Source: Robertmurraya dakarensis (GTDB lineage: Bacteria; Bacillota; Bacilli; Bacillales; Cytobacillaceae). From it: DNA of 64,000 nucleotides. The notes beneath the pieces are model-generated. The model ran no database searches. It saw nothing but the letters and a program-made list of their open reading frames with translations, and was not told the origin of the DNA. The translations under genes and the position numbers were made by a program. Where the stretch lies: assembly GCF_900156875.1 (NCBI RefSeq), contig NZ_LT707409.1:718113-782112 (forward strand). Direction: 5' to 3'. Below, one piece after another: positions 4,068 to 44,661 of this stretch; position 1 is the stretch's first letter; every line of letters begins with the position of its first letter.

Positions 4068-6332
4068 ATGGCAGACGGGAAGGACGAGATTATTTTAAGA
4101 GGCCTAAAAGAAAACAACTTAAAAAATATTGATTTAAACTTACCGAAGGGAAAAATCATTGTATTTACGGGGCTTTCAGGGTCTGGGAAGAGCTCAGTTG
4201 TTTTTGATACTTTGGCAACAGAAAGTAGAAGGCAGATGACGTTGAATTATCCACTTTATGTCCGAAATCATATGCCGAGGTATGAAAGACCTCAAGCGGA
4301 TCTTATGCAAAACTTAAGCCCGGTGGTCGTAGTGGAACAAAGGCAGATCGGTGGTAATTCTCGATCGACCGTTGGCACCTATATGGATATCCATCCATTG
4401 ATTAGGCTTTTGTTTTCAAGAATCGGGAAGCCGTCGATTGGTTCAGCGACTGATTTTTCGAATCAAAGTTCCTTTGGCAGATGTCCAACCTGCAGTGGAT
4501 TTGGGGAGGTCATCGCGCCCGACCTTAACAAACTAGTTGATTTCAACCTGTCACTGCGGGAATATGCGGTGAAATTCAAGCCTTTATCCCCGTCTGGCTG
4601 GCAAGGAAGATGGATGATGGAAGGCGGATTATTCGATCCGGACCTGCCTATAGAAGACTACCCCGAAGATAAACTCCACTTGTTATTGTATGGTCCCCCG
4701 GAAGGTGAAAAAGTCTATGCACCGTTTCATACAAAAAATGGGCCGCAACCCCATGAGTGGGATGGCTTATTACCGAGATTTACCCGCCTTTATATCAATC
4801 GAGATGTCTCAAAGCTAAAAGAAGTATCCCAAGATGACGTCTTAGCCGTCACAACCCATTCTCTATGTCCAACCTGTCAAGGCTCCGGTCTCAACCCAAA
4901 GATATTGGAATGTAAGATAGATGGCCACAATATTGCAGACTATGATGCAATGGAGCTTACAGAACTACTGGAACAACTAACAAACATGAAAGAACCAATG
5001 GGAACATCGATTGCCAGTCAAGCCATCCCGCTTATCCAGCAACTTGTGCAAATGGGATTAGGTTATTTGAGCCTTTCTAGAAAGATGGGCACCCTTTCCG
5101 GCGGTGAAGCACAGCGGGTAAAAATCGCTCGCCATTTAGGAAGCAGCTTAAACAATTTGACCTACATTTTTGACGAACCTAGTGCTGGTCTTCATCCAGA
5201 AGAAGTGGATCTGTTAATAGCGATGCTAAAAAGTATTAAAGCCGCGCATAATACGGTCATTGTGATCGAACATGATTTATCCGTCATCAAAGCAGGTGAC
5301 GAAATCATTGAGATGGGACCGGGAGCTGGTACCAGCGGGGGAGAAGTAGTTTTTCAAGGAAAAGTAGATGGGCTGACAAACTCACTCGCCGCAACATCAT
5401 TACATCATCAGTTCATCATCAACAAGAATCCGAGGAAAACAAAAGAATATTTTACGATAAATGAAGCGAGTCATAATAACTTGAAGAATATCAGCGTTAC
5501 TATTCCCAAAAATGTCCTCGTTACAGTATGTGGTGTGTCGGGTTCAGGGAAAAGCTCGTTAATGACGGAAGCATTCCCTGAAAGTGTTCCAGAATGCATC
5601 ATGGTCGGACAAGGCAGTATCGGGATTTCGAGCCGTTCGACACTTGCGACCTATATGGGGATTATGGATGATATTCGTTCCATTTTTTCGAAAGAAACAG
5701 GCCAGCCAATCGGTTTGTTCAGCTTTAATTCCTTAGGGGCCTGTCCTGTCTGCAATGGGAAAGGCGTCACCACGCCAGACGTCGCCTTTGCAGATCCTGT
5801 GACGATTACCTGTGAAGCATGTGAAGGAACGAGATATTCAGATGAAGCGCTAGTCTATCAATATCAGGGAAAAAATATAATAGAAGTTTTAAAATTAACC
5901 ATTGATGAGGCTTTGGACTATTTTAAGCTGCCGAAGATATTAAAAAGAGTGCAGACGCTAGAAGACGCAGGATTAGGGTATCTATCGTTAGGACAGACGA
6001 CAAGCTCGCTAAGTGGAGGAGAAGTCCAGCGTCTTAAGCTTGCCAGCCATCTGCAAAAAGAAGGTCAAATATACATACTTGACGAGCCATCCTTAGGACT
6101 ACATCTAAAAGATAATGGAAAGCTATTAGAAGTCTTTCAAAAGCTAGTCAACAAAGGGAATTCGGTGATTCTCATCGAACATAATTTAGATTTTATCGCA
6201 GCGAGCGACTGGGTTATTGAATTGGGACCAGGAGGAGGAAAACACGGCGGGAACATCATCTTTGAAGGCACACCAGAGGAGATGTTACAGGCAGAGACAT
6301 TGACGGCGAAATGGTTACGGGATGGGATTTGA
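4068..6332 (+). CDS. Short UvrA-like ABC ATPase (UvrA2/DrrC type)
   Basis: A 754-aa UvrA paralogue with two ABC modules: Walker A GLSGSGKS at 35-42 and GVSGSGKS at about 489, and signatures LSGGEAQ (about 343) and LSGGEVQ (about 648). Zinc-finger-like motifs CPTCSGFG, CPTCQGSG and CPVCNGKG with CEACEGTRY are present. Housekeeping UvrA is about 950 aa; the shorter length indicates loss of part of the insertion region that in UvrA contacts UvrB and DNA. Such paralogues occur with antibiotic or DNA-damage tolerance genes. The start has AGAAAGGAGGA upstream. The next gene begins 38 nt downstream and may be cotranscribed. Confidence 0.9.
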   Translation: MADGKDEIILRGLKENNLKNIDLNLPKGKIIVFTGLSGSGKSSVVFDTLATESRRQMTLNYPLYVRNHMPRYERPQADLMQNLSPVVVVEQRQIGGNSRSTVGTYMDIHPLIRLLFSRIGKPSIGSATDFSNQSSFGRCPTCSGFGEVIAPDLNKLVDFNLSLREYAVKFKPLSPSGWQGRWMMEGGLFDPDLPIEDYPEDKLHLLLYGPPEGEKVYAPFHTKNGPQPHEWDGLLPRFTRLYINRDVSKLKEVSQDDVLAVTTHSLCPTCQGSGLNPKILECKIDGHNIADYDAMELTELLEQLTNMKEPMGTSIASQAIPLIQQLVQMGLGYLSLSRKMGTLSGGEAQRVKIARHLGSSLNNLTYIFDEPSAGLHPEEVDLLIAMLKSIKAAHNTVIVIEHDLSVIKAGDEIIEMGPGAGTSGGEVVFQGKVDGLTNSLAATSLHHQFIINKNPRKTKEYFTINEASHNNLKNISVTIPKNVLVTVCGVSGSGKSSLMTEAFPESVPECIMVGQGSIGISSRSTLATYMGIMDDIRSIFSKETGQPIGLFSFNSLGACPVCNGKGVTTPDVAFADPVTITCEACEGTRYSDEALVYQYQGKNIIEVLKLTIDEALDYFKLPKILKRVQTLEDAGLGYLSLGQTTSSLSGGEVQRLKLASHLQKEGQIYILDEPSLGLHLKDNGKLLEVFQKLVNKGNSVILIEHNLDFIAASDWVIELGPGGGKHGGNIIFEGTPEEMLQAETLTAKWLRDGI

Positions 6333-35899: not shown

Positions 35900-36784
35900 A
35901 TGGAGAAAATTCATTATTCTATTGTCGATGTGTTTTCAGAAGGAAAATATACAGGGAATCCAATTGCAGTTTTTAAAAATGCCGGGAAAATTTCTGATCG
36001 TGAAATGCAAAAAATAGCTAAAGAAATAAATTATTCGGAAACAACTTTTATCTTGTCTGATTCAAAAAATGATGGTGGTTATGATGTCCGAATTTTTACA
36101 CCTCTTGAAGAAGTTCCTTTTGCTGGTCATCCGACTTTAGGAACAGCATATATCATTCAAAACGAAGTATTAAAAGGATCATCAGAAAACCTTATTTTAA
36201 ATTTCAAGGGGGGAAAGATACCCGTTTCATTTAATCATCAAGAAGAAGTTTTATGGATGAAACAAAATGAACCGACTTTCGGTAAAATTTTAGATTTTAA
36301 TGAGGTTGCTGATGTTTTAAACATTGATAAAGAATACATCGATGATCGATTTCCTATTCAAGAAGTTTCAACTGGACTTGCAGTAATTATTGTACCTTTA
36401 AATTCCTTAGAGGCAGTTAAAAAGGTAACAATAAATAAAGAAAAATACTTTGAATTAATACAACATACGGAAGCAAAAGCAATAATGGTTTTTTGTCCGG
36501 AAGTATACCATTCGGAAAATGATTTAAATGTTCGAGACTTTGCAGATTATTATGGTATTCCTGAAGATGCAGCCACTGGCAGTGCTAATGGATGTTTAGC
36601 TTCTTATCTAGTTAAATACAAATATTTTAAAAAGAATAAAATTAACATTCGGGTAGAGCAAGGATATGAAATTCAAAGACCTTCTTTATTATTTTTAAAG
36701 GCAGATGAAGATAATAACGGGAAAATCAACGTTTATGTAGGAGGTAAAGTAGTAAAAATTGCTCAAGGGGAATGGCTTCTTTAG
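35900..36784 (+). CDS. PhzF-family isomerase (second copy)
   Basis: A 294-aa PhzF-type protein, longer than the one at 18849. Catalytic E47 is in INYSETTFIL; EEVPFAGHPTLGTA and PEDAATGSANGCLASYL are the paired active-site motifs. GGAGGAAG precedes the ATG. An AraC-type regulator gene follows on the same strand. A degenerate copy of its last about 40 codons, joined to part of the AraC-type gene, lies at 38837. Confidence 0.9.
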   Translation: MEKIHYSIVDVFSEGKYTGNPIAVFKNAGKISDREMQKIAKEINYSETTFILSDSKNDGGYDVRIFTPLEEVPFAGHPTLGTAYIIQNEVLKGSSENLILNFKGGKIPVSFNHQEEVLWMKQNEPTFGKILDFNEVADVLNIDKEYIDDRFPIQEVSTGLAVIIVPLNSLEAVKKVTINKEKYFELIQHTEAKAIMVFCPEVYHSENDLNVRDFADYYGIPEDAATGSANGCLASYLVKYKYFKKNKINIRVEQGYEIQRPSLLFLKADEDNNGKINVYVGGKVVKIAQGEWLL

Positions 36785-36975: not shown

Positions 36976-37848
36976 ATGGATTCGCTAAAAAGTATGAATG
37001 AATCAATGAGGTATATTGAGGATAACCTCACTAACGATATAGATTTCAAAGTGGTGGCAAGAATCGCTCAATGTTCAGAATATCATTTTAAAAGAATGTT
37101 TTCTTTTCTTGCAGGTGTAACATTATCAGAATACATTCGCCGTAGACGATTAAGCTTGGCGGCATTTGAACTTACAAATCGTAATTTAAGGATAATTGAT
37201 ATTGCGGTAAAATATGGATACAATTCACCAGACTCTTTTTCTAGGGCTTTTCAACATTTTCATGGTGTAACCCCATCAGAAGCAAGGAATAACGGACAGC
37301 AATTAAAAGCCTTTCCACCAATGACCTTCCAATTATCAATTAAGGGAGGAAATGAAATGAATTACACAATACAACAAAAAGAGGGATTTAGCATAGTTGG
37401 TATTATGAAAAGAGTTCCGATTATTTTTGAAGGGGAAAACCCAGAAATTTCAGCGATGTGGAAATCCTTGAATATGGAAAAAATAGAGCAATTAAAAAAA
37501 CTCTCAAATGTTGCACCGGCAGGGATTATTCAAGCATCAACAAACTTTTCTGAAGGACGTATGGAAGAAAAAGGAGAGCTTGATCAGTATATAGGAGTGG
37601 CAACCACACAAAAGTGCCCTGAAAACTTTTCAGAATTAGAAGTTCCTGCCTTAACTTGGGCGATATTTGAATCAACCGGACCTTTCCCTGGTACACTACA
37701 GGAAACTTGGGGCAGGATTTATTCTGAGTGGTTTCTATCTTCCCATTACCAAGTAGCAGAAGGACCAGAAATCTTATCGATTAAAACTCAAGATTTAACT
37801 TCACCATCTGTGACAAGTGAAATTTGGATTCCGGTTTTAAAAAAGTAA
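36976..37848 (+). CDS. AraC-family regulator with GyrI-like effector domain
   Basis: A 290-aa regulator. A double helix-turn-helix AraC domain at about 8-105 ([60 protein letters not shown]) is joined to a C-terminal effector-binding GyrI/BmrR-like domain at about 120-290 ([60 protein letters not shown]). Such regulators bind hydrophobic or cationic compounds and activate efflux or detoxification genes. ATG 36976 has a near-ideal AAAGGAGGT 6 nt upstream. Part of the effector domain is duplicated at 38960-39195. Confidence 0.92.
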
Positions 37849-37870
37849 TAAAATTTTAGATACCTTATTC

Positions 37871-37923
37871 TGGTGCCTTTCCCCCACTGCATTAACGCTT
37901 TATCACAGTGGGGCGCAGGCACT
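37871..37923. repeat. GGTGCC palindromic repeat, copy 1
   Basis: TGGTGCC pairs with GGCACTA, and CCCCACTG pairs with CAGTGGGG inside it, forming one long interrupted hairpin. Related copies are at 42431, 44722 and 52659. Confidence 0.65.
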
Positions 37924-37930
37924 ATTTTAC

Positions 37931-38216
37931 AGATTCCGCTGCTGGGATTAGGAGGGTCCGATCTATCGTTTAGGAGTACGGGTTAAGAACCCGTAGATAA
38001 ATAGAGGGAAAAATTCCGCTTAATCAGTAAAATGGATTGAGCATAGGCACTAATAGATGGAGAATTTCCCTTTATTGATTCTAAAAAAGTGAAAATAGGC
38101 TATTTTTCTTTGGATAAGTGGAAAATCTCCCTTTATATCCCACGAAACGAGCGTCATTCTGATTTTTACGGGAAATTCTCCACTTATTTTACTTTCGTTT
38201 GTTACCCATTTAAAAG
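37931..38216. repeat. Long extragenic repeat, copy 1
   Basis: A roughly 285-bp sequence containing AGAGGGAAAAATTCCGCTTA, ATTTCCCTTTATTGATTC, GGCTATTTTTCTTTGGATAA and CGAAACGAGCGTCATT. It is repeated at 42144 and 44364 with roughly 80-90% identity by eye. It contains several short self-complementary patches (GGAAAATCTCC, GGGAAATTCTCC) and no open frame worth calling. Confidence 0.8.
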
Positions 38217-38256
38217 GAATTGCGATGAGGACCATTGCTTTGGATTTAATTCCTTC

Positions 38257-38310
38257 TATTATCCTAAAAAAGCCAAACAATCCAAAACGCTAGAGGCAAG
38301 GATTGAGTAG
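38257..38310 (+). pseudogene. Relic of the OmdA-type gene 3' end
   Basis: The frame KKAKQSKTLEARIE matches SKAKQSKTRESRIE near the end of the intact gene at 6371; the DNA match (AAAGCCAAACAATCCAAAAC) is nearly exact. It abuts the long extragenic repeat. Confidence 0.7.
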
Positions 38311-38368
38311 CCAGGAGAGAATATAATCTCCTTGCTCTAATTTTTAAGCAATTTTATTACTTTTACTT

Positions 38369-38374
38369 TATAAT
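38369..38374 (+). promoter_or_regulatory. Likely -10 box of the HesB-like gene
   Basis: A perfect TATAAT lies 47 nt before the HesB-like start. No clear -35 was found at the right distance. Confidence 0.4.
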
Positions 38375-38415
38375 AAAGGAATGCTTAAAAGGAAATACAA
38401 GAGGTGGAAATGGAT

Positions 38416-38694
38416 ATGAAGATAACAGACGAAGCTCGTGATGAGTTTAAGAAAATGTTCAAAGAAAAGAATGCCAAAAACATTCGTATCTTTTTTGATG
38501 GTTTTGGCTGAGGACAGCCGAGGATTGGACTGGCTCTGGATGAGCCAGAAGCTGACGATATTATCGTTACTATAAATGATATAAAAGTAGCAATTGACCC
38601 TATTATTGAACCGAACACAGAAGATCTTATCCTTGATCGCAGTGGAAATGGTCATGGGATTTCAATGATCGGTAACACAGGAAGATGCTGTTAA
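38416..38694 (+). CDS. HesB-like selenoprotein candidate (in-frame UGA)
   Basis: Reading through one TGA at 38509-38511 gives a 92-aa HesB/IscA-related protein: MKITDEARDEFKKMFKEKNA, then IRIFFDGFG-U-GQPRIGLAL, DEPEADDIIVTINDIKVAID and a Gly-rich end with terminal CC. The UGA is residue 32, in the FGUGxP position where the HesB-like (seleno)protein family has selenocysteine or cysteine. The length fits that family, and 60 codons after the UGA are intact. A 7-bp hairpin with loop TGGAT starts 18 nt downstream. ATG 38416 has GAGGTGG 8 nt upstream. The role is unknown, possibly iron-sulfur or redox. A nonsense-mutant pseudogene is the alternative. Confidence 0.75.
38530..38548 (+). promoter_or_regulatory. 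SECIS-like hairpin in the HesB-like gene
   Basis: CTGGCTC (38530-38536) pairs perfectly with GAGCCAG (38542-38548) around loop TGGAT. The loop begins 26 nt after the UGA and has G at its second position, as expected for bacterial SECIS elements recognised by SelB (G in the first two loop bases, loop roughly 16-37 nt from UGA). Confidence 0.6.
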
Positions 38695-38735
38695 TAAAGA
38701 CGTTAAGGGTGTTTAATTAAATAACAAGACTGTCG

Positions 38736-38765
38736 ATCCATCTTTCAAATAGATGGATTTTTTTG
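38736..38765 (+). terminator. Terminator of the HesB-like gene
   Basis: ATCCATCT (38736-38743) pairs with AGATGGAT (38751-38758), followed by seven T. A near copy occurs at 39954. Confidence 0.85.
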
Positions 38766-38836
38766 TATTGAATTTGTATAAAGGCCTACAAGGAAATGAT
38801 ATGCTGTTATTGAATTAACGAACTGTCTATTTGAAG

Positions 38837-39195
38837 AAACATTCGGGTAGAGAAGGATATGAAACTGAAAGATCTTCTTTATTATTCTTAAAAGCAGATG
38901 ATGATAATTTTATGTCGGAGGTAAAGTAGTAAAAGTTTGCTAAAGATGAATGGCTCAATATTGAGCCGCTAGGGATTATTCAAGCATCAACAAACTTTTC
39001 TGAAGGATGTATGGAAGAAAAAGGAGATCTTGATCAATATATAGGAGTGGCAACCACACAAAAGTGCCCTGAAAACTTTTCAGAATTAGAAGTTCCTACC
39101 TTAACTTGGGCGATATTTGAATCAACCGGACCTTTCCCTAGTACACTACATGAAACTTGGGGCAGGATTTATTCTGAATGGTTTCCATCTGAAAG
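38837..39195 (+). pseudogene. Fused relics of PhzF tail and AraC effector domain
   Basis: 38837-38960 is a degenerate copy of the last part of the PhzF gene (compare 36648-36776). 38960-39195 copies the effector domain of the AraC-type gene (compare 37510-37740), including [20 protein letters not shown] and [20 protein letters not shown]. The order is the same as in the intact pair, but everything in between is deleted. The open frame running to 39256 is only the remnant with an unrelated tail. Confidence 0.8.
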
Positions 39196-42128: not shown

Positions 42129-42143
42129 GTGTTACAGGCAGCT

Positions 42144-42425
42144 AGATGATAAAAAGATGCTGATACCCGCATCTGGGATCAATCTTTTCGTTTAGGAGTT
42201 CAGGGTAAAAACCCGTTGTTATATATAGAGGGAAAAATTCCGCTTAATCAGTAAAATGGATTGAGCATAGGCACTAATAGATGGAGAATTTCCCTTTATT
42301 GATTCTAAAAAAGTGAAAATAGGCTATTTTTCTTTGGATAAGCGGAAAATCTGCCCTTATATCCAGCGAAACGAGCGTCATTATGATTTTAACCGGAAAA
42401 TCTCCGCTTATTTTATTAACGTTAA
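42144..42425. repeat. Long extragenic repeat, copy 2
   Basis: It matches copies at 37931 and 44364. It begins with a small hairpin AGATGATAAAAAGATGC...GCATCT and holds the shared core from AGAGGGAAAAATTCCGCTTA to GAAAATCTCCGCTTATTT. The first 100 nt are closer to copy 3 and the core closer to copy 1. Confidence 0.8.
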
Positions 42426-44142: not shown

Positions 44143-44363
44143 CGCCTTACCTCTTACATTTTGACATATATTTTTAGTATAACAAACGCAAGGAAGTCCA
44201 TTAAAGGGTGGATTTTTGATCTGCCAGTCAAGTCCTTGTGAAGCTCATGTATGAAAGAAAATGAAGTAATTACATTTAATGGTGAGGTTGAAAATTATAA
44301 ATTTCATACAAGTCCAGATAATGATATGTAAATTAAGATACTGGTGCCTCTCCCCGCTGCATT
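44143..44363. other. Intergenic stretch with half a GGTGCC palindrome
   Basis: No gene is supported. A 27-codon frame at 44250-44331 (MKENEVITFNGEVENYKFHT) has no ribosome site. TGGTGCCTCTCCCCGCTGC at 44342-44360 matches the left half of the GGTGCC palindrome, directly before the long repeat. Confidence 0.45.
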
Positions 44364-44661
44364 TAGATGATAAAAACATGCTGATTCCCGCGTCTGGGAT
44401 CAATCTTATCGTTCAGTAGTTCAGGGTAAAAACCCGATCTGATTAATAGAGGGAAAAATTCCCCTTACTCAGTAAAATGGATTGAAAGTTGGCACAAATA
44501 GAAGGAGAAATTCCCTTTATTGATTCGAAAAAAGGGAAATTGGGCTATTTTTCCTTGGATAAGCGGAAAACTTCCCCTTATATCCCCCGAAACGAGCGTC
44601 ATTCAGGTTTTAACGGGAAAATCTCCGCTTATTTTTCTTTTGTTACTTACTCATTTAAAAG
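44364..44661. repeat. Long extragenic repeat, copy 3
   Basis: It matches copies at 37931 and 42144 along its length, including AGATGATAAAAA at the start, AAACCCGATC, AGAGGGAAAAATTCC, GGCTATTTTTCCTTGGATAA, CGAAACGAGCGTCATT and CATTTAAAAG at the end. A 73-codon frame inside is an accident of the repeat. Confidence 0.8.

Follow-up and report, generated by a model that had tools for sequence, protein, structure and literature searches.

Identification of the gene and its flanking signals

Does the reading frame at 38416-38694 (plus strand) of the window, i.e. the whole 64-kb stretch of DNA analysed here, encode a selenoprotein, and in what process could such a protein take part? The HesB-fold gene runs from an ATG to a TAA over 92 codons plus the TAA, with 31 codons before its single in-frame TGA (38509-38511, plus strand) and 60 after it, and the predicted selenocysteine, U32, is set in the sequence FDGFG-U-GQPRIGLALDEP. 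The initial annotation had described a HesB/IscA-like frame continuous through one TGA, with 60 codons after it, a good ribosome site, an upstream TATAAT and its own terminator, and the frame is as it was described. The ribosome-binding site AGAGGTGG is seen by direct reading of the sequence at 38400-38407 (plus strand). It lies 8 nt ahead of the start codon at 38416, which it fits better than the alternative in-frame ATG, at 38410; a start position equivalent to 38416 is used by many relatives. A terminator-like hairpin with a run of T behind it lies at 38735-38759 on the same strand (two terminator-like sites were found vs 0.6 expected in shuffles). The TATAAT string is likewise present, at 38369-38374, but its role as a promoter did not hold up, as a scan of 37850-38900 returned no sigma-70-like site on the plus strand and three sites, all on the minus strand (3.3 in shuffles). 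An AT-rich inverted repeat spans the string (z -1.33). The frame, the match to the TIGR01911 profile, an ortholog (locus L097) 98% identical to the product and the dN/dS values given below all bear on the reading of this stretch as a HesB-like selenoprotein gene, one which, judged from sequence, is almost certainly genuine.

Decoding of the UGA and conservation of the site

The genes for selenocysteine (Sec) decoding, which had been proposed as a check, are all four present in the same host genome (5.48 Mb in 11 contigs). These are selC, the tRNA-Sec with anticodon TCA (C10:1427044-1427136), selA (C11:1154769-1156154), selB (C10:1497237-1499096) and selD, which contains a TGA of its own (C11:1158287-1159213), each over its family cut-off. 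The idea that the machinery is kept solely for the gene at 38416-38694 was rejected, since the host also has the TGA-containing selD and a formate dehydrogenase match. The latter, over its cut-off, and one further partial match contain one in-frame TGA each (C11:1564144-1566165 and C11:3471889-3472644).

In a sample of 61 genomes, i.e. the host and 60 relatives, UGA-HesB matches occurred in 32 of the 47 genomes with a tRNA-Sec over cut-off vs none of the 14 without (Fisher P 3.4e-6) and, with selA taken instead, in 32/45 vs 0/16 (P 3.3e-7); these P values are overstated because related genomes are not independent, and two of the 32 positive genomes (G040 and G052) are counted solely on a UGA gene that belongs to a different HesB group. 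Contrary to the earlier remark that selenoproteins are uncommon in Bacillaceae, the genes for Sec decoding are common across this part of the Bacillales (selA in 45/61 sampled genomes, tRNA-Sec over cut-off in 47/61). Many members of the order are aerobes. How common the machinery is in the sampled members of the order bears on the statement, made in the available part of a 2026 review, that selenoproteins are rarely retained by aerobic bacteria (PMC13188914).

The species genome collection was scanned with the part of the protein that follows U32; 208 relatives were found and the nearest 80 were fetched, with names that are mostly those of Bacillaceae (the exceptions being two Paenibacillus, one Sporosarcina and one Bacillota bin). 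The codon equivalent to U32 is TGA in 78 of the 80, TAA in one (L163) and out of register in one (L143), and Cys occupies the U column in all three Cys homologues aligned, in agreement with the earlier placing of the TGA at the Sec/Cys residue of the HesB-like family. The 60 codons after the TGA gave dN/dS values of 0 to 0.115 against 10 close relatives, and those of L097 show 12 synonymous and zero nonsynonymous differences; purifying selection acts on the codons that follow the UGA. The exceptional L163 (Bacillus sp. V3-13), where the Sec site is a TAA (the codon before position 5001) and the hairpin is intact, sits behind arsR-arsB-arsC-arsD, and could be a case of decay, of sequencing error or of something else.

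The SECIS-like hairpin

Bacterial SECIS elements follow a rule on the loop G and on the spacing from the UGA. A SECIS-like hairpin, CUGGCUC-UGGAU-GAGCCAG, starts 18 nt past the TGA at 38530-38548 (plus strand), with the same perfect 7-bp stem and the same 5-nt loop, its second base a G, that had been noticed at the outset, and it is backed by folding, by a synonymous-codon null and by covariation across relatives. Taken alone, its folding signal is modest, with a z of -1.97 and an equally good fold in 8 of 200 shuffles. In the synonymous-codon null, the best hairpin at the expected place was compared with 200 synonymous recodings per gene in 46 UGA genes, 7 of which belong to two further UGA groups. 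The mean z was -3.24, with P <= 0.05 in 38/46 and P <= 0.01 in 24/46 genes, vs mean z values of -0.06, -0.12 and 0.00 for control stretches 60, 90 and 120 nt further in the same genes. A hairpin beyond recoding was found in 0/5 non-UGA homologues, two of the five being ordinary IscA-type genes. The eight UGA genes in which the hairpin does not stand out are L016, L019, L022, L037, L087, L091, L092 and one L084 copy.

For covariation, 30 sequences (the window gene and 29 of the 80 loci) were hand-picked to span the variants; their stem is paired in 96.2% of cells vs 18-45% for slid partners, and five of the seven pairs changed on both sides. In L117, L123 and L155 the protein sequence encoded by the stem, LALDEP, has become LRLDGV, LRLNGV and LSLDGS, respectively, with all seven pairs intact. 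A tandem second copy in L084 (G024:C15, 2909-3202) has the motif FSUNKTN, the end CGC and a canonical hairpin, and the hairpin of the adjoining copy is poor.

Family membership and fold

HesB-like selenoproteins are a known family in the accessible parts of earlier reports (PMC1794560, PMC5029168, PMC9312934, PMC13188914), and the 2026 review, in the sections at hand, counts HesB-like proteins among selenoproteins, the functions of most of which are described as not clear (PMC13188914). The initial annotation had placed the gene in this family. This is right in so far as the best NCBIfam match of the product is TIGR01911, HesB_rel_seleno (E 1.1e-14, 54.8 bits), but the score lies under the curated cut-off of 66.35 bits, as does that of the UGA paralogue on contig C10 of the host (58.4 bits). 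There were no TIGR01911 matches over cut-off in the 61 genomes, nor in 249 phylum-wide genomes searched at a strict limit, where the result shows just that no match reached E 1e-17 or the cut-off, and none among the matches listed for 397 order-wide genomes. The gene resembles the TIGR01911 family in size, in the Sec at the aligned position and in the hairpin right after the UGA. It differs in that many of its relatives are in ars operons and in the motif after U, which is U-G-Q-P in the window gene and U-G-G-P in the C10 paralogue vs the UxGP tabulated in the available part of the review (PMC13188914). Earlier surveys, as far as their accessible text goes, reported 11 HesB-like selenoprotein genes (PMC1794560) and 90 in 86 organisms, about one per genome (PMC5029168), whereas up to three UGA copies of the window gene's group are found in one genome (G035).

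The AlphaFold2 model (window gene plus 49 loci) has a pLDDT of 90.5 overall and 62 for the last block, and its best Foldseek match is E. coli IscA (1s98; E 3.4e-5, TM 0.73), which places the product in the HesB fold. U32, C91 and C92 are invariant in 50 aligned proteins (the window gene and 49 of the 80 relatives, a set without L123), and the C-terminal CC is found in 78 of the 80 relatives, of the other two L123 ending CG and L143 being unreadable.

Two further HesB-fold groups carry a UGA at the same site, with the motifs GUGGPQL and TTGUGATY (L087, L089, L091, L092, L093 and L088, L090). Among them the hairpin goes beyond recoding in L088, L089, L090 and L093 and not in L087, L091 and L092, and the two members that were scanned, L093 and L088, score under the NCBIfam cut-offs of their matches.

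Arsenic operon context of the relatives

Among the 80 nearest relatives (of the 208 found), 54 are preceded on their own strand by ars genes, a context called by ArsC, ArsB, ArsA, ArsD and Acr3 only; ArsR was not used for it because the single-linkage cluster 0 mixes ArsR with rhodaneses. Clustering of the genes around the 80 loci, with names taken from NCBIfam and Pfam matches of representatives and not gene by gene, gave arsC, arsB, acr3, arsA, arsD, arsI, aquaporin, thioredoxin reductase and dual-specificity phosphatase. The nearest upstream gene in the 54 ars loci is arsC in 27, a dual-specificity phosphatase in 12, arsA in 12 and another gene in 3, and since the median gap to the upstream gene is 56 nt, hesB reads as the last gene of the operon. 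The arsA cluster is present in 24/84 neighbourhoods and the arsD cluster in 22/84, so that the ArsD and HesB genes are often side by side. A role as a chaperone of ArsA only cannot be general, because arsC is the nearest gene in 27/54 loci and arsA and arsD are found in part of the operons.

The tree of these genes, from which six of the 80 loci with an irregular frame or site were omitted (L126, L135, L139, L143, L148 and L163) and to which the window gene, the host's second copy and four rows without Sec (three Cys forms and the host's IscA-like gene) were added, requires 13-14 changes of context. Related genes are non-independent events, and the Fisher values on ars context given below ignore kinship.

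A strict ars gene upstream is lacking in 26 of the 80 relatives; SpoVR adjoins 9 of these and 13 are without nameable context. Some of the SpoVR loci, as well as L116, L119, L125 and L127, are beside TauE, several with rhodanese, TusA or DsrE. UGA-HesB genes beside SpoVR and/or rhodanese, CsoR-like, DsrE, TusA and TauE genes were seen at L148, L149, L150, L158 and L168, and the same surroundings at L169, L172, L206, L218 and L223 and at the four TauE loci just named. Genes for a two-component system and PepSY-domain proteins recur upstream of the non-ars copies L148, L150, L158, L168, L172 and L223, and also at the host's second copy (L186, 5346-8698).

Relatives are carried by six plasmid records; the two examined (H1 and H4) come from Cytobacillus plasmids and represent ars operons, with hesB at the end of an arsA-trxB-phosphatase run and no feature listed at its place. 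Genes of this kind, being read through a stop-like codon, are easily lost in annotation: their scores fall under the cut-offs of the curated models, and for five plasmid copies from Cytobacillus the feature table, which is incomplete, shows no gene at the site. A reading as phage or plasmid cargo was rejected, with no relative confirmed among viral contigs, zero matches in phage records and six plasmid records matched.

The 54/80 rate is that of the relatives nearest to the query, and the rate in the 61-genome sample is lower: all 39 UGA genes of the window gene's group were covered there, and ars context was found in 13/39, some flanks ending at contig ends (e.g. L209 and L228). When the genes are divided by their endings, ars context is seen in 13/28 CC-ending UGA genes vs 0/11 with other endings, i.e. 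10 with a single Cys and one CGC (Fisher P 0.007), and the remaining 15/28 CC-ending genes are without ars context in the fetched flanks. The Cys forms whose motif is GCC or ACC (L178-L184), which all end CC, are at the end of an ars operon in 7/7 cases, and tRNA-Sec is absent from G042, G012 and G031, which are among their genomes. Cys genes of other HesB groups (L229-L243) have an ars gene nearby in 1/15 cases, on the opposite strand (7/7 vs 1/15, P 5e-5, all 22 Cys genes being hand-picked). This rate of 1/15 indicates that HesB genes in general do not share the ars link, and the split by ending together with the controls indicates that the link belongs to the CC-ending branch, where it is common but not general. 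L123 ends CG and yet is in ars context.

Proposed role and alternatives

The best explanation overall is probably that of an ars-accessory selenoprotein. SelB and Sec-tRNA(Sec) would decode the UGA at 38509-38511, aided by the hairpin at 38530-38548, into a 92-residue protein of the HesB/IscA fold with one selenocysteine, U32, and the C-terminal C91 and C92. The CC-ending branch would be an accessory part of arsenic resistance, many of its members being last in an ars operon, and Cys versions hold the same place in the ars operon as Sec versions. On what sequence and gene order can tell, an arsenic-related function of this branch is likely, and for the window copy the argument would be indirect.

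Three soft ligands suit As(III), as in ArsR and ArsD. The selenol and the two C-terminal thiols may bind trivalent arsenic as three soft ligands, and the bound As(III) could then be sequestered or passed on, or a client protein shielded. As an account of the chemistry, an As(III) carrier is conceivable, if on the doubtful side. The proposed three-ligand site is not universal because L123 ends CG and, among the 39 UGA genes, 10 have a single Cys at the C terminus and one has CGC. ArsD (NF033727) is similarly a small soluble protein of ars operons with three soft ligands and may work alike; the product of the 38416-38694 gene had no match to NF033727 among its NCBIfam matches up to E 1. Doubtful as well is the full proposal of an easily missed ars-operon selenoprotein that would bind As(III) in a site of one selenolate and two thiolates and then pass it on or keep it, by which the arsenic resistance of many Bacillaceae would be partly selenium-dependent and the Cys version would replace the Sec version where Sec decoding is lost. 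If this were true, arsenic operons would be one force that keeps the Sec machinery in these bacilli.

IscA-type proteins have three cysteines, arranged as C and CxC. A tentative alternative, which we consider rather doubtful, is that the gene encodes a real selenoprotein acting as an A-type Fe-S carrier that repairs or protects Fe-S proteins in arsenic stress, with iron or a cluster held by U32, C91 and C92. The common fold and a weak sequence kinship to IscA, SufA, AQ_1857 and HI1723 are in line with it, as is the alignment of the U column with a Cys of AQ_1857 and HI1723. However, the vicinal C91-C92 at the C-terminal of the window gene's product is not a CxC, the scores of this product fall under the cut-offs for IscA/SufA/ErpA proteins, both for PF01521, Fe-S_biosyn (20.7 vs 26.3 bits), and for TIGR00049 (25.5 vs 58.8 bits), and the host already has an ordinary IscA-like paralogue without TGA (C11:2793987-2794265).

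The order of the genes in the ars operons could also suggest a redox partner, i.e. a selenol-dithiol protein that takes electrons from thioredoxin reductase and reduces with them the arsenate reductase ArsC or arsenic-thiol adducts, given that arsC is the nearest upstream gene in 27/54 ars loci and a thioredoxin reductase cluster occurs in 8/84 neighbourhoods. The trxB of that cluster is nevertheless absent from the other 76/84, the fold found is HesB and not thioredoxin-like, and we regard this role as unlikely. Even less probable is a protein for the handling of sulfur, persulfide or selenium for which the ars operons are secondary. Such a function would agree with the minority context with a CsoR-like regulator, DsrE, TusA-rhodanese, MBL-rhodanese, TauE and SpoVR, which needs few origins in the tree (3 changes) and also surrounds the single-Cys member L206, but the ars context is that of the majority among the 80 nearest relatives (54) and of 7/7 GCC-type Cys forms. 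Finally, a pseudogene or a nonsense mutation in an IscA-like gene, for which just the in-frame TGA itself and the TAA at the site in L163 would speak, is scarcely credible, and on sequence grounds refuted, in the face of dN/dS values of 0 to 0.115 after the TGA, a TGA in 78/80 relatives, a covarying hairpin and zero TGA-containing matches in the 14 genomes without tRNA-Sec.

Relation to reported ars operons

In regards to the ars-accessory selenoprotein, HesB-like genes have been reported in ars operons before: in the portions of the papers available, orf7 is a HesB-like gene of the ars1 operon of Bacillus sp. CDB3 (PMC4562236, PMC5481582), and Exiguobacterium aurantiacum SW-20 has a hesB in its ars operon, HesB being tabulated as increased at 8% salt together with arsA, arsR and arsD (PMC8779447). 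Both genes are like the present ones in lying within an ars operon, and the GCC-type L178-L184 have the same kinds of neighbours. They differ in that, in those portions, no selenocysteine is named for them, whereas the present genes use a UGA and a SECIS-like hairpin; the string 'selen' is absent from the texts of PMC4562236 and PMC5481582 as available. In the open-licence literature we found no paper that joins Sec and the ars-operon HesB, and what is new is therefore a branch with encoded Sec and a link to ars operons that falls outside the curated limits of the family. A selenoprotein family without known role thereby gains a testable function, its position beside arsB/acr3, arsC, arsD and arsA pointing to arsenic, and there is a hint that selenium helps Bacillus-type bacteria to cope with arsenic.

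The window copy and its surroundings

The gene at 38416-38694 is not in an ars operon. Its neighbours, named by eye, are PhzF-like and AraC/GyrI-like upstream and NAD-binding-like and transporter-like downstream, and a tblastn search of the whole 64 kb with ars representatives gave nothing at E 1e-4; a local ars remnant in the window was rejected on these zero matches. The ars link was invisible to the initial annotation because the window copy has no ars genes beside it. The host's own arsR-arsB-arsC lies on C11 near 2,964 kb without a hesB beside it, and the second UGA paralogue of the host (C10:116885-117094) is also outside ars genes. Since only one arsC over cut-off is found in the 5.48 Mb of the host, a chance ars neighbour should be rare.

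In the tree, the neighbours of the window copy are L097, L099, L098 and L103, all of them ars-operon copies. In blastn, positions 4786-5193 of L099 (Neobacillus drentensis JC05) match 38299-38704 of the window with 86% identity, and the part upstream of the gene, 38299-38415 (plus strand), is thereby homologous to the arsC-hesB spacer of L099; the similarity starts 2 nt past the last base of the L099 arsC, which ends at 4784. Given the ars-operon copies among its relatives and a similarity that begins at the end of arsC, the window copy looks like the end of an operon that was moved or left behind, and it probably has a transcript of its own.

A 277-nt interspersed repeat is present three times in this part of the window (37914-38190, 42138-42414 and 44359-44635), the first copy directly upstream of the selenoprotein gene, and it has 7 matches in the host genome, 5 of them long. 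The ends of the AraC/GyrI-like and PhzF-like genes recur in degenerate form downstream of the selenoprotein gene (37507-37740 paired with 38957-39190, and 36660-36715 with 38853-38908), as if an insertion or a tandem duplication had placed the selenoprotein gene between two copies of its neighbours' ends.
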